Positions 20,021 to 60,335 of a stretch of DNA of 64,000 nt are shown here, in pieces (within the stretch, counting starts at the first letter, position 1; each line of letters begins with the position of its first letter). The translations under genes and the position numbers were made by a program. Source of the stretch: Malus domestica (lineage: Eukaryota > Streptophyta > Magnoliopsida > Rosales > Rosaceae); contig NC_091666.1 of the NCBI RefSeq assembly GCF_042453785.1, positions 27,176,501-27,240,500 on the forward strand, in the 5' to 3' direction. Under the pieces are notes generated by a model that had not been told where the DNA came from, ran no database searches, and saw nothing but the letters and a program-made list of their open reading frames with translations.

Positions 20021-20157
20021 TAAGAGGAATTTGTAAATGACTCATTCTAAGTAGACATTTTGCCAATTTCCCTCACATTAATGATCACCGTAAGAGGAAT
20101 TTGTAAATGACTCATTCTAAGTAGACATTTTGCCAATTTCCCTCACATTAATGATCA
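20021..20157. repeat. 67-bp exact tandem duplication
   Basis: The 67 bases at 20021-20087 (TAAGAGGAATTTGTAAATGA ... TAATGATCA) recur without change at 20091-20157, with CCG between. Perfect identity implies a recent event. It ends about 30 bases before the gypsy element's left LTR. Non-coding. Confidence 0.95.
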
Positions 20158-41696: not shown

Positions 41697-42095
41697 AACA
41701 AAAACTAAGCCGAATTGCAACAATGGTCCCTGTGTTTATCCGAGATTTCACTTTTGTCATTGTAGAAATTTTGTTTCACTTTGTACAAGGACGAAAGTGA
41801 AATCTCAAATAAACTAGGACCATTTTGCAAATCGGCGCAAAATATAACCATGGTTAGGGTCTTAAAATGGACATGTGGCACGATTTACAAGAAACTGAAA
41901 TTACATCGATAGTCCCTATAGTTTATCCGAGATTTCATTTTGCCATTGTAGGTTTTTTGTTTCACTTTCTACGAGGTCGAAAGTGAAATCTCAGGCAAAC
42001 TACAGGGACTGTCGTTGCAATTTCACCAAAAAATTAACCATGGTTAGGGTTTTAACCATAGGCCAACAAATGATTAGGTGGCATCATTTTATAAA
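41697..42095. repeat. Tandem duplication of a palindromic element with its flank
   Basis: Two palindromes, 41709-41836 and 41897-42025, share the arms GGTCCCTGTGTTTATCCGAG-like and GAAAGTGAAATCTCA. Each is followed by the same flank (ACCATGGTTAGGGT, then a GTGGCAC/GTGGCATC phrase). The unit of about 190 bp is therefore duplicated head to tail, and each palindrome can fold into a long hairpin. Confidence 0.7.
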
Positions 42096-42872
42096 AGCCG
42101 ATGCTACACCTATATATATGTGTCTGGATGTATAGAAAAATGTACATGCAAAACTCCTCAGCTACTGAAAGAATTGCACCAAAAAATATAAAAAAAAATC
42201 CAGAAGTTGGGATTATTTGAATTTTGATCAAGGCAAATAGAGGGCGAGCATAAAAATTTTGTGGAGAATTCATCAGTGGCGTCTCTTTGACCAAAATATT
42301 GAAACTGGTAAAGTTCATATCTCTTATATATATATGTTTCTGTATGGTTTCACTGTGGCATATATGGATTTATTTTTGCTGTTTCTTCTCATAAGTTATC
42401 AGCAATGCTAATGATAATCTAGGGATTTAGTCAAAGCTACTGAAATTGGGCAGGTTGGATGTGTAATTTGAAGTCTTATTGGCAGCTATTTGGATTGTTT
42501 GCATGTCTTTGTGCTTGTGAGGGATTTGCATATTTCATCATATATCTTCAAATTTTAGTAAATTTGAGAACTTGATATTTGGTTTTTGTTCTTAATTGTT
42601 CAAACTTGGAGCTTGGTTTTTCTGTTTGATTTCAATTTCTTATTCACTTGAAGTGTTTGATAGCTGAGATTTTACTTCTAAGAAGGAATTCTCATTTGGT
42701 TTTGTGATGAATTGTGGGAAACGAAAAACTTGGAATTCAGATATATACATACACCCTGTGATCTGTCGTTAGGATCACCAGAGTTTCGTGGGAACAAAAT
42801 AGGCCGTTGGATTTCATTTTGCGGCCTCTTGTTGATTGGGATCATGGTTTTTCCGATTAGTTGGATGTCATT
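42096..42872 (+). other. Putative promoter, first leader exon and intron start of the J-domain gene
   Basis: CCTATATATATGTG near 42110 could be a TATA box, and GGTAAAG near 42308 a leader donor site. Acceptor-like CGTGACAG at 43911-43918 or GTGCGCAG at about 43952-43959 would close a leader intron of about 1.6 kb. Transcription start and leader splicing are inferred from sequence alone. Confidence 0.35.
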
Positions 42873-43803
42873 GTGCTTTTGTTGATTCAACCTGTGTTTA
42901 TTTGAAAGTTCAATGCTTTAACTTGTTGAGTTTTGTAGATACGTGATTTCCCGCGTAATTTGTTGTATTGAGTATTCTAGATTATGAGGTGTTAAAGATT
43001 CGGTAACTGATATATCTTAGGACATTGCAATGATATGGTCCTCAATGTGCTTTTGTTAATTCAAACTGTGTTTATTTGAAAGTTCGGTGCTTTAACTTGT
43101 TGAGTTTTGTAGACACGTGATTTCCCGCGTAATTTGTTGTATTGAGTATTATAGATTAGGAGGTGTTAAAGATTCTGTAACTGATATATCTTAGGACACT
43201 GCAATCATATGATTCTCAATGTGCTTATGTTAATTCAACCCGTGTTTATTTGAAAGTTCGGTGCCTTAACTTGTTGAGTTTTGTAGATACGTGATTTCCC
43301 GCGTAATTTGTTTGATCGTTGTATTGAGTATTCTAGATTAGGATGTGTTAAAGATTCGGTAACTGACATATCTTAAGAAGATTCGGTAACTGAATGTGGA
43401 ATTTGTGTAACATTGCAATCATATGGTCCTCAATGTGCTTTTGTTAATTCAAACTGTGTTCATTTGAAAGCTCGGTGCTTTAACTTTGTTGAGTTTTGTA
43501 GATACTTGATTTCCCGCGTTATTTATCTGATCGTTGTATTGAGTATTCTAGATTAGGAGGTGTTAACAATTTGGTAACTGTTATATGTTAGGAAGATTCG
43601 GTAACTGAATGTGGAATGTGTGTCGCATTGCAGTCATATGATCCTTACTGTACTTTTGCTAATTCTTCCTGTGTTTATTTGGAAGTTCAGTTCTTTAACT
43701 TGTTGAATTTTATGGATACGTGATTTCCCGCGCATATTTTTAATCGTTGAATTGAGTAATTCTAGATTAGAAGGTGTTAAAGATTCGGTAACTGATATAT
43801 CTG
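42873..43803 (+). repeat. Five tandem copies (174-215 bp) upstream of the J-domain gene
   Basis: Copies start at about 42873, 43047, 43221, 43435 and 43650, each beginning GTGCTTTTGTTAATTCAA or a variant. Shared blocks are GTGTTTATTTGAAAG, TTTAACTTGTTGAGTTTTGT, ACGTGATTTCCCGCG, TTGTATTGAGTATTCTAGAT and AAAGATTCGGTAACTGATAT. Copies 3 and 4 carry an extra ~40 bp that repeats the GATTCGGTAACTGA phrase. Copy 5 is the most diverged. The array is non-coding and probably lies in the leader intron or promoter. Confidence 0.92.
42947..43731 (+). promoter_or_regulatory. Five E2F-type sites (TTTCCCGC), one per tandem repeat
   Basis: The exact 8-mer TTTCCCGC occurs at 42947, 43121, 43295, 43510 and 43724, always on the plus strand and kept in all five repeats. 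It fits the E2F/DP consensus TTTSSCGC. In four copies it directly follows an ACGTG core (GATACGTGATTTCCCGC; copy 2 has a full CACGTG G-box). E2F factors drive S-phase genes; use of these sites is inference. Confidence 0.55.
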
Positions 43804-43985
43804 AGAAGCATTCATTAGCCCTTTTTTTCTATGTTTGTAGTTGTTGTGTTTGATTGATCACGTCTGTATTTTTCTTGATAATCTTTGCATCTTTGATTCT
43901 TATTTCGCAACGTGACAGTCTATCAATAAAAGAAGCATCAAGGGAAATATTGTGCGCAGACACAGAGAGTCACCAACCAGTGAAA

Positions 43986-46900
43986 ATGGAATGTAATAAA
44001 GACGAGGCCCTCAAGGCGAAAGAGGTCGCAGAGTTGAAGGCTTCAGAGCGTGACTTCTCTGGGGCTCTAAGATTTGCTTTAAAGGCGCGGAGCTTGTATC
44101 CCGAGCTTGATGGTCTTCCTCAGCTTTTGACAACTCTTTATGTTCACACCTCCGCTCAGAAGGGAACAACTGGTGAGACCGATCGCTATAAGGTCCTTGC
44201 TGTGGAACCGTTGGCTGACAAGGGCACAATCCGAAAGCAATACAAGAGACTGGCTCTCTCTCTTCATCCAGATAAAAATAAATCTGTAGGCGCAGACAGT
44301 GCTTTCCAAATTGTTAAGGAAGCCTGGAATTTGTTGTCTGATGAAGACGAGAGATTTCTTTATGACCAGAGGCGGAGCTTAAGCTACATGGTTGAAAGAG
44401 TTTCGGATTGCAAATCATCCACAGCGATGAGTCAGAATGGTTTTCATACCTTCTCCAACTATAATCAGTCAAACGGAAGGGATCAGTGGAGTGCTAATTA
44501 TACTGACCCTTTTACTACAATGAGTTGGAATGCTTTCCATACCTTCTCCAACTATAATCAGTCAAACAGAAAGGATCAGTGGAGTTCTAATTATACCGAT
44601 CCTGTTACAGCAATGAGGCGGAATGGTTTCCACACCTTCTCTAACTATAATCAGTCAAACGGAAGGGATCAGTGGAGTGCTAGTTATACCAATCCTGTTA
44701 CTATGAGTCAGAATGGTTACCATACCTCCTCCAACTATAATCATTCAAACGGAAGGGATCAGAGGAGTGCTACTCGTAATGAGCCTACTGGAGTAACGAG
44801 TCAGGATGGTTTCTATACCTCCTCCGACTATAATCATTCAAAAGGAATGGATCAGAGGAGTGCTACTCCTGCCGAGCCTACACCAATGTGTCAGAATGGT
44901 TCCCATACCTCCTCCAACTATAAGCATTCAAACGGAAGGGATCAGATGAGTGCTACTCGTTCTGTGCCAACAGGAGTAACAAGTCAGGATGGTTTCTATA
45001 CCTCCCACAATAATCATTCAAACGGAAGGGATCAGAGGAGTGCTACTTCTGTCGAGCATACTAGACCATTGTGCCAGAATGATTTCCATACCCCCTCCAA
45101 CGATAGTCGTTCAAACAGAAGGGATCAGAAGGGTGCTACTTCTGTCGAGCCTACTACACCAGTGTGCCAGAATGATTTCCATACCTCCTCCAACGATAAT
45201 CATTCAAACGGAAGGGATCAGAGTAGTGCTAGTGCTAGTCATACCAAGCCTACTAGATGCAATACCAAGCCTAGTAGACCTCCTTCTCTACCGAAACAGA
45301 CATTTTGGACAGTGTGCAGTAGTTGCAAGATGCATTTTGAGTATCTTAAGACTTATCTGAACCACCACCTTCTGTGTCACAACTGCAATCAGGGCTTTTT
45401 AGCTCTTGAGACACCAGCCCCAAAAGTACCCAATTTGACATCCTCTCCATGGATTTCCTACTTTCAGCGAAAGGGTTCTGGGCAGCGCAACAGGACCAAG
45501 AAGACCTGTGCTCCAGGAAGTTCACAAACTGCTACCGTAAATGTGGGATTAGCTGGAAATTCTGGAGTTGACACATCAACACAAGATTTGGCAGGCAAAG
45601 GGCAAGTACCAGGTTCCTGTGCTGGTCAAACTGCAAGTGACGTTCGCCAAGAATTTGGGGAATCAAAGAGAAGGCATGAAGAGGCGTTTCCAAATAAGAA
45701 GGTGCATACGTGCAATCTTGATGCTTTTAAGAAAACAGATGCTGCCTTAGCTTCTGAGTCTCCTACCTCTGCTTCCAGTTCTGTACCCAACAAAGAGATG
45801 CCTACGAAGAAAAGGCATCTGAGCGGGCAAGAGATAGGAATGGCTAATGGAGGAGTTGCTATGGACAGTGTATTCGGACCTAACAATGGTAGTGTTGGTA
45901 CAGGAAGTTTTGATGTAGCTGGAACGCTTGAACTTAACTTCACAAGGAATCTGCCCATAATACAAGTGAGGAGTGCGTTGCAAGGAATGATTCAGAAAGA
46001 AATTTCCCAGAAGCTTAAAGTGTGGAAGGAGGCTGCTGCGTCGAAGACTTCATTTACACCAAAAGCTGCTGCAGATAGTAACCAGGTGAAAGAGAAGCAA
46101 AAGGAAGAAGCTTGTCAGCGTGGTGTAAAAACTAGTGTTACAGGATGTACGGCATTTGTGAATCCGAAGAAGTCTTCCCTTGCCAATTCTCATGTGGACA
46201 CTGATATGGAGCAACAAGATACAGTGAAAATGACTGTTCCAGACCCTGATTTTCTTGATTTTGACAAGGATCGTACAGAAAAGTCATTTGGTAGCAACCA
46301 GGTTTGGGCCATCTACGATGAAGATGATGCCATGCCCCGTTATTATGCTATGGTTCACAGTGTGATATCTTTGAAACCGTTCAAACTTAGCATGAACTGG
46401 CTCAACGCCAAAACTAACAGCGAGATTGCTCCACTAGATTGGATTGCTTGTGGTTTTTCTAAGACTAGCGGGGAACTTCGGAAAGGGAAGCACGTAGTCT
46501 ATGACCATCTTCCTTCTTTCTCACACAAGGTGGCTAGGTGGACAAAAGGCAAAAGAGGAGCTATCTGCATATATCCATCAAAAGGAGAAGTCTGGGGACT
46601 GTTCAGGAACTGGTCCCCCGTTTGGAACGAACATACCCCAGATGACGTTATTCAGAAATATGATATGGTGCAAGTGCTTGAAGATTACAACGAGGAGCAA
46701 GGCGTGAAAATTGTCCCACTGGTTAAAGTAGCAGGTTTCAAAACAGTGTTCTGCCAACATTGGGACCAAAGTAAAATCATGAAAATTCCAAGGGAAGAAC
46801 TCTTTCGTTTCTCCCACCAGGTCCCTTCTATAAGTCTCACCGGAAATGAAGGTCACAATGTTCCGAAAGGATGCTTGGAGCTTGATCCTGCGGCTACTCC

Positions 46901-47183
46901 CTTGGAACTGCTTCAGGTGGAATCAGAAGAATATGAGGATGACATGGAGGTGACAGGTGAAGGATGTAATGGTGAAGATCCGGTTGGATTGTCAAAAACC
47001 ACCAAGGAAGAGGCTCAGGTGGATAATGGCAAAGTAACTAAAGAAACGGGCTTGATAGAAGAGGCTGAGAAAAAAGACTTGGCAGACATGATGAAGAGGG
47101 AGAAGGAACGCCAAGGGCCGACGTTGCTAGTGTATAGTCGGAAATGTTTCAGGGAAGACAAAAAGAAGGGTGCCGACTGCTAA
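43986..47183 (+). CDS. J-domain (HSP40) protein with zinc-ribbon-like part and C-terminal DUF3444, single coding exon
   Basis: The start at 43986 gives 1065 residues and the family's usual opening MECNKDEALKAKEVAELKAS. The frame is open a further 44 codons upstream, but that part looks like intron and leader. Order: N-terminal helical region (1-60), J domain (about 66-130) with intact HPD at 94-96, nine tandem ~31-residue repeats (about 148-418), a Cys-rich segment (about 438-475; CSSCKMHF and CHNCNQGF), a low-complexity linker, then DUF3444 (about 765-975; QVWAIYDEDDAMPRYYA, WTKGKRGAICIYPSKGEVW) and an acidic tail. J domains stimulate Hsp70 ATPase activity; the role of DUF3444 is unknown. 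Family members are usually 700-1100 residues. The repeat block is unusual. No defects seen. Confidence 0.9.
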   Translation: MECNKDEALKAKEVAELKASERDFSGALRFALKARSLYPELDGLPQLLTTLYVHTSAQKGTTGETDRYKVLAVEPLADKGTIRKQYKRLALSLHPDKNKSVGADSAFQIVKEAWNLLSDEDERFLYDQRRSLSYMVERVSDCKSSTAMSQNGFHTFSNYNQSNGRDQWSANYTDPFTTMSWNAFHTFSNYNQSNRKDQWSSNYTDPVTAMRRNGFHTFSNYNQSNGRDQWSASYTNPVTMSQNGYHTSSNYNHSNGRDQRSATRNEPTGVTSQDGFYTSSDYNHSKGMDQRSATPAEPTPMCQNGSHTSSNYKHSNGRDQMSATRSVPTGVTSQDGFYTSHNNHSNGRDQRSATSVEHTRPLCQNDFHTPSNDSRSNRRDQKGATSVEPTTPVCQNDFHTSSNDNHSNGRDQSSASASHTKPTRCNTKPSRPPSLPKQTFWTVCSSCKMHFEYLKTYLNHHLLCHNCNQGFLALETPAPKVPNLTSSPWISYFQRKGSGQRNRTKKTCAPGSSQTATVNVGLAGNSGVDTSTQDLAGKGQVPGSCAGQTASDVRQEFGESKRRHEEAFPNKKVHTCNLDAFKKTDAALASESPTSASSSVPNKEMPTKKRHLSGQEIGMANGGVAMDSVFGPNNGSVGTGSFDVAGTLELNFTRNLPIIQVRSALQGMIQKEISQKLKVWKEAAASKTSFTPKAAADSNQVKEKQKEEACQRGVKTSVTGCTAFVNPKKSSLANSHVDTDMEQQDTVKMTVPDPDFLDFDKDRTEKSFGSNQVWAIYDEDDAMPRYYAMVHSVISLKPFKLSMNWLNAKTNSEIAPLDWIACGFSKTSGELRKGKHVVYDHLPSFSHKVARWTKGKRGAICIYPSKGEVWGLFRNWSPVWNEHTPDDVIQKYDMVQVLEDYNEEQGVKIVPLVKVAGFKTVFCQHWDQSKIMKIPREELFRFSHQVPSISLTGNEGHNVPKGCLELDPAATPLELLQVESEEYEDDMEVTGEGCNGEDPVGLSKTTKEEAQVDNGKVTKETGLIEEAEKKDLADMMKREKERQGPTLLVYSRKCFREDKKKGADC
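44427..45237 (+). repeat. Coding minisatellite, nine ~93-bp units in the J-domain gene
   Basis: Units start at about 44427, 44520, 44613, 44703 and onward. Each encodes a version of MSQNGFHTFSNYNQSNGRDQ followed by W/R-S-A and a T..PT end. The first three are close to each other; later ones replace W by R and MSQNG by TSQDG or CQND, and pair as higher-order doublets. Every length change is a multiple of three. The product is a polar, Asn/Ser/Tyr-rich linker, probably disordered. Confidence 0.92.
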
Positions 47184-59935: not shown

Positions 59936-60335
59936 ATGTCTAACGGTCTTGGGTCGTGACTCATACTAGTATATCAGTCGTCCACACACCAATACGTGAA
60001 CATTAATTAATAATTGTGTAATGCTCTCGAGTCGTGACTCATACTAGCATATCACCCGTCCACTCATTAACATGAACATTAATTAATAATAATCTAACGC
60101 CCTTGAGTCGTGACTCGTACTAGTATATCAACCATTCACACACCAATACGAGAACATTAATCAATAATTGTCTAACGTTATCGAGTTGTGACGTGTACTA
60201 GTAAATCAGTCGTCCATGCACCAATACGTGAACATTAATTAATTTTCATGATCGTCTAACGCTCTCGAGTCATGACTCATACTAATATATCAGTCGTCCA
60301 CGCACCAATAGGTAAATATTAATCAATAGTCGTCG
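59936..60335. repeat. Five tandem copies of a ~80-bp unit
   Basis: Units begin at about 59938, 60018, 60094, 60173 and 60256 with TCTAACG.T.TCGAGTCGTGA. They continue through CTCATACTAGTATATCAGTC, GTCCACACACCAATACGTG and AACATTAATTAATAAT. Unit length varies from about 76 to 83 bp and units differ by about 10-20%. No coding frame runs through them. Confidence 0.9.

Follow-up and report, generated by a model that had tools for sequence, protein, structure and literature searches.

A tandem array of E2F-consensus sites at an apple J-domain/DUF3444 gene and its duplicate

Tandem multiplication of regulatory segments is already known in plants, and in the accessible literature the apple gene MYB10 is the closest case (PMC5996158). 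In red-fleshed apples the R6 form of this gene carries five direct tandem repeats upstream, which alter its expression (Espley et al. 2009, cited in PMC5996158; also PMC11321683), and the accessible text describes R6 as a variety-specific promoter repeat with a demonstrated autoregulatory effect (PMC5996158). The same text reports repeated promoter segments that are needed for, or scale, activity in orchid GDPS, cotton RLC1 and citrus LCYb1 (PMC5996158). For E2F sites, amplification by transposons in Brassicaceae is mentioned in the available part of a paper (Henaff et al. 2014, cited in PMC12595863).

In the window analysed here, a stretch of 64 kb on contig 6, we found head-to-tail copies of a segment bearing a transcription factor site in the 5′ region of a gene. 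As in MYB10 R6, as far as the accessible descriptions go, an apple gene bears five tandem copies in its upstream region. The R6 repeat unit is short, whereas the units of the present array measure 174-215 bp, carry an E2F-type site, lie in a putative leader intron and partly predate a gene duplication. GDPS, RLC1 and LCYb1 involve other factors and units, and their available descriptions, like that of R6, include a demonstrated function, whereas that of the present array is a prediction. The lineage-specific multiplication of E2F sites is shared with the Brassicaceae as described in the source at hand; there, however, the sites were dispersed by transposons and are mostly far from genes, whereas the present ones arose locally, by tandem duplication at a single gene pair. 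Among the titles and abstract openings listed by a literature search that had most subscription papers outside its reach, none concerned an E2F-site minisatellite or the control of DUF3444 J proteins by E2F.

The array and the gene that carries it

The features of the locus are as follows, in positions of the window.

42121..42307, + strand: putative 5′ UTR exon 1, read from the sequence, ending at the GT donor CTG/GTAAAG
42308..43840, + strand: putative 5′-leader intron enclosing the array, with a conserved donor and no overlapping ORF of at least 100 aa
42784..42791, + strand: possible altered E2F-like site 5′ of the array, TTTCGTGG on contig 6 and TTTCGCGG on contig 14
42868..43041, + strand: unit 1, TTTCCCGC at 42947-42954
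43042..43215, + strand: unit 2, TTTCCCGC at 43121-43128
43216..43430, + strand: unit 3, TTTCCCGC at 43295-43302
43431..43643, + strand: unit 4, TTTCCCGC at 43510-43517; ACTTG replaces ACGTG
43644..43832, + strand: unit 5, TTTCCCGC at 43724-43731; matches the last unit on contig 14 (ultrafast bootstrap 93)
43986..47183, + strand: CDS of 1065 aa, ATG at 43986, with DnaJ, Zn_ribbon_20 and DUF3444 domains
44421..45231, + strand: in-frame coding minisatellite of 93 bp (31 residues), 8.8 copies, between the J domain and the zinc ribbon

The array itself spans 42868-43803 and consists of five head-to-tail units upstream of the J-domain/DUF3444 coding sequence; TRF reported it as one row with period 174 (42868-43375) and another with period 215 (43196-43802). 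The E2F consensus is TTTSSCGC. Its perfect match near the gene start is TTTCCCGC, which is present in all five units and in the three units of the duplicate locus described below. On contig 6 the sites share one orientation and their starts are 174, 174, 215 and 214 bp apart, which confirms the five repeats with an exact E2F-type site that the earlier note had reported. The longer ACGTGATTTCCCGCG is exact in four of the five units, with one mismatch in unit 4 (ACTTG). Counting both strands, the window contains five occurrences of TTTCCCGC, all inside the array. Shuffled windows contained 1.02 on average, and five or more were reached in 0 of 100 shuffles; as all five derive from a single site by copying, this test demonstrates only that the array exists. 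An Rfam scan of the window returned one tRNA elsewhere and no match at the array. Two further tandem structures were noted in the window: an array of five copies with a period of 78 bp and 76% matches (59937-60328), which lacks TTTCCCGC, and a 70-bp duplication of two copies (20021-20157), which is probably recent, as its copies match at 100%.

The protein has strong Pfam matches to DnaJ (E-value 5.7e-18; 65.2 bits against a gathering cut-off of 27.8), Zn_ribbon_20 (3.3e-14) and DUF3444 (1.6e-71; 240.6 bits against 26.1). Some 150-180 bp separate the end of the array from the ATG. The array is probably intronic, because the GT donor of exon 1 is common to the duplicate gene (GGTAAA on contig 14) and no ORF of at least 100 aa overlaps the array. 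Exon 1 is identical to the contig 14 copy at 142 of 170 aligned bases and the intron segment 5′ of the array at 489 of 550. Candidate acceptors are a TTTGTAG ending at 43840, which contig 14 has in common, and an ACAG ending at 43918. Immediately 5′ of the putative exon stands a TATA-like TTTTATAAAAG (42087-42097), the equivalent of which is altered on contig 14 (TTTTACAAAAG). Taken together, the predicted transcription start and splicing suggest that the array is located in a 5′-leader intron, with the TTTCCCGC sites ∼0.8-1.6 kb downstream of the start. Further upstream of the gene, at 41720-42060, we noticed two adjacent stretches with inverted-repeat-like arms (GAGATTTCACTTT / AAAGTGAAATCTC); similar pieces occur upstream of the contig 14 gene in both orientations, so this may be a small transposon.

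The duplicate locus and the age of the units

The array was used as a query against the genome (651,096,769 bases, 19 contigs) in a search that passes over very frequent words and scores just its top candidates. It matched one place besides itself, C14:24331750-24332304 (79% identical). Both places are at the gene pair, and no dispersed copy of the unit was found beyond them. The contig 14 locus (L003) contains a J/DUF3444 gene of 900 aa. Across 886 aligned codons the two proteins show an amino-acid identity of 0.80, with dN 0.11 and Ks 0.19 between the genes. At the corresponding location this gene has an array of three units, with TTTCCCGC at positions 2324, 2521 and 2728 of the locus; ahead of it stands the additional E2F-like TTTCGCGG. 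The claim of an E2F-consensus site multiplied in tandem ahead of a J-domain gene is supported, and the multiplied site is also retained in the duplicate. Paralogue pairs of this family fall on contigs 13/16, 1/7, 9/17, 4/12, 8/15, 5/10 and 6/14, pairings that we take to agree with the duplicate chromosomes of apple, and contigs 6 and 14 would thus represent a duplicated-chromosome pair.

The array appears to be restricted to this gene pair. A search for paralogues gave 51 matches, and 28 loci (L036-L063) were examined. For 23 of them (L036-L058) the match starts within the first eight query residues, and about 1.5 kb upstream of each was inspected; L059-L063, with matches starting at residue 20 or later, were excluded from this count. 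None of the 23 has an array upstream. One has a single TTTCCCGC (L044) and two have TTTCCCGG (L043, L046). A blastn comparison of the leader and unit 2 with all 28 loci gave no match at E 0.1. As far as these loci go, the array is not a property of the J/DUF3444 family but belongs to the gene pair.

The core motif of the units, TGATTTCCCGCG (12 bp), occurs 53 times genome-wide (651 Mb) compared to 13 times for its reversed control, and eight of these occurrences are in the two arrays. We examined 25 of the 45 others: 21 belong to one dispersed repeat family and four are single. Pairs of TTTCCCGC separated by a 160-190 bp spacer occur four times in the genome (two for the reversed control), and three of the four lie in these arrays. 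The dispersed family (21 of the loci L005-L033) includes copies that are more than 99% alike and has TGATTTCCCGCG within an open integrase-like stretch; judged by eye, the frame around it resembles a decayed copia-type integrase.

To order the duplications we computed an unrooted tree from all eight units, in which the finer branches (supports 50 and 65) are unreliable as the units are short. Unit 5 of contig 6 joins unit 3 of contig 14, each the last of its array (ultrafast bootstrap 93), and thus at least two units predate the split of the two loci. Another split (support 94) separates units 1-4 of contig 6 from unit 5 and the three contig 14 units, and a third (support 100) separates units 1 and 2 of contig 6 from all others. 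The p-distance between units 1 and 2 is 0.08, while the other pairs among units 1-4 are 0.12-0.18 apart and the orthologous last units 0.14. We considered whether units 1-4 were all younger than the split and dropped this idea: their distances (0.08-0.18) overlap the orthologous value, so that only the copy relating units 1 and 2 is clearly younger. The recent spread by unequal exchange that had been suggested for the array fits units 1 and 2, which are 8% apart, but not units 3 and 4, whose divergence of 12-18% is comparable to that of the orthologous last units (14%), and the array is partly older than the split. The tandem array is thus real, specific to the locus and in part ancient, and the E2F consensus within it is stable.

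Conservation of the core

The sequence TGATTTCCCGCG is identical in all eight units of both arrays. Across the 28 unit pairs the p-distance outside this core ranges from 0.08 to 0.26 and the core differs in none. A comparison of substitution density inside and outside the core bears out the earlier expectation: of the 179 alignment columns kept (those with letters in fewer than six units were excluded), the 12 core columns show 0 changes, whereas the 73 upstream columns show 48 (0.66 per column) and the 91 downstream columns 62 (0.68). Windows of 12 columns contain 7.5 changes on average (sd 4.6). The core is also the longest invariant run of the alignment; the other runs measure 9, 7, 6 and 6 columns and include GTAACTG.

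The invariance did not extend to the ACGTG that precedes the site. The earlier note had described a 15-base core as almost unchanged; this stands for its E2F part, and ACGTG is exact in four of the five contig 6 units, but it is kept in only four of the eight units overall and in none of the three on contig 14. With four changes in the three columns of the ACG half (columns 83-85), the composite core is not upheld, and a composite ACGTG plus E2F element was rejected. A cryptic exon was rejected too: the acceptor-like TTTTGTAG is intact only in units 1-4 of contig 6, and unit 5 and all three contig 14 units lack an intact copy.

How exceptional the invariant core is depends on the null model. 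When columns were shuffled, an equally long invariant run appeared in 4.6% of 20,000 shuffles (scan-wide p 0.046) and a 12-column window with zero changes in 7.4% (scan-wide p 0.074). In simulations based on tree length any such run arose in 3.7% of cases at the fitted gamma shape of 1.225, in 16% at a shape of 0.5 and in 0.4% with equal rates. The probability that the 8-bp motif stays unchanged is 0.006 at the fitted shape if it is named in advance, but the motif was chosen post hoc. All of these constraint statistics cover two loci of one genome, with units that share descent and may convert one another.

CpG is a fast-decaying type of site in plants. The two core CpGs are kept in 16 of 16 cells. 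At the four further columns where three or more units have CpG, 17 of 30 cells keep it (Fisher 0.0015); these columns were chosen after inspection and the cells are non-independent, and the CpG in GATCGTTG, which belongs to these four, is retained in all six units having that column. The adjacent ACG and the E2F-like site ahead of the array both vary at their CpG. Overall, selection on the core is suggested but not proved, the scan-wide evidence being borderline.

Neutral growth, other roles and E2F regulation

The most serious rival to a regulatory role is a neutral intronic minisatellite, in which the founding unit would have contained a chance match to the E2F consensus that was then copied, its invariance reflecting chance and homogenisation. 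We consider this quite possible, though not the reading to be preferred. The gene is evidently prone to such growth: the 93-bp coding minisatellite has only 3.9 copies in its contig 14 counterpart (L003 3559-3913) compared to 8.8 on contig 6, so that both it and the intron array are longer on contig 6. Short tandem repeats also occur on the coding side of five paralogous loci (L036-L039, L044), and there are several other tandem arrays elsewhere in the window. Because tandem growth is habitual at this gene, the expansion needs no selection on the E2F sites, and the scan-wide p values for the core reach 0.16. On the other hand, homogenisation should spare the flanks as well, yet they differ by up to 26%, and both core CpGs are intact in 8/8 units across two arrays while those of the nearby ACG and of the pre-array site are altered.

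If the core is constrained, E2F need not be the reason. It might be preserved for a different DNA-binding protein, for an element in the intron that enhances expression, or as a signal in splicing or chromatin. Expression-enhancing elements are common in plant leader introns, in which the array is predicted to lie, and the additional invariant runs of the unit (among them GTAACTG) would fit such a role. The longest of the invariant runs, however, includes a perfect TTTSSCGC, and we regard this explanation as unlikely. Given the many transcription factor motifs known, a match to one of 8 bp can be picked out post hoc. Least probable by far is an origin of the units as pieces of a transposon that spreads E2F sites, in the manner reported for Brassica. 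The accessible account of amplified E2F sites provides a precedent (PMC12595863), and TGATTTCCCGCG is indeed present in a dispersed family of the genome; the array query, with its limitation to less common words and best candidates, found just the array and its contig 14 counterpart and nothing from that family, and we largely rejected a transposon origin.

The reading we prefer is E2F regulation, at about even chances and with neutral minisatellite growth close behind: an E2F-site minisatellite at the gene and its duplicate that may be bound by E2F, kept by purifying selection and linked to expression in proliferating cells. A founding unit with one consensus site (TTTCCCGC) would have been duplicated in tandem in the putative leader intron. 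At least two units were present before the gene was duplicated, probably as part of contigs 6 and 14, after which the arrays reached five and three units, respectively. E2F/DP, together with RBR, might occupy the clustered sites downstream of the start, and purifying selection might maintain them. Expression of the chaperone cofactor could in this way be tied to proliferation, or to repression in quiescent cells. E2F bound at a promoter would be expected closer to the start than 0.8-1.6 kb. In Arabidopsis, the ChIP-seq peaks of E2Fc are mostly in promoters and enriched in the canonical motif, according to the available portion of the study (PMC12915602). As the gene is prone to tandem duplication, copy number probably drifts, and selection, if any, is more likely to preserve the motif than to drive its multiplication. 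A bolder version, which we consider doubtful, would have tandem duplication create a multi-site E2F switch in the leader intron, kept through the whole-genome duplication and conferring on this one pair of the family a cell-cycle control absent in the paralogues, with three and five sites setting different strengths.

If the sites do not work, the locus is a clean case of a tandem repeat that mimics a convincing cluster of binding sites. If they do work, the two genes would offer a natural dose series of three and five E2F sites on the tuning of cell-cycle control by a minisatellite, and they would provide a cell-cycle link for the poorly known DUF3444 chaperone family.
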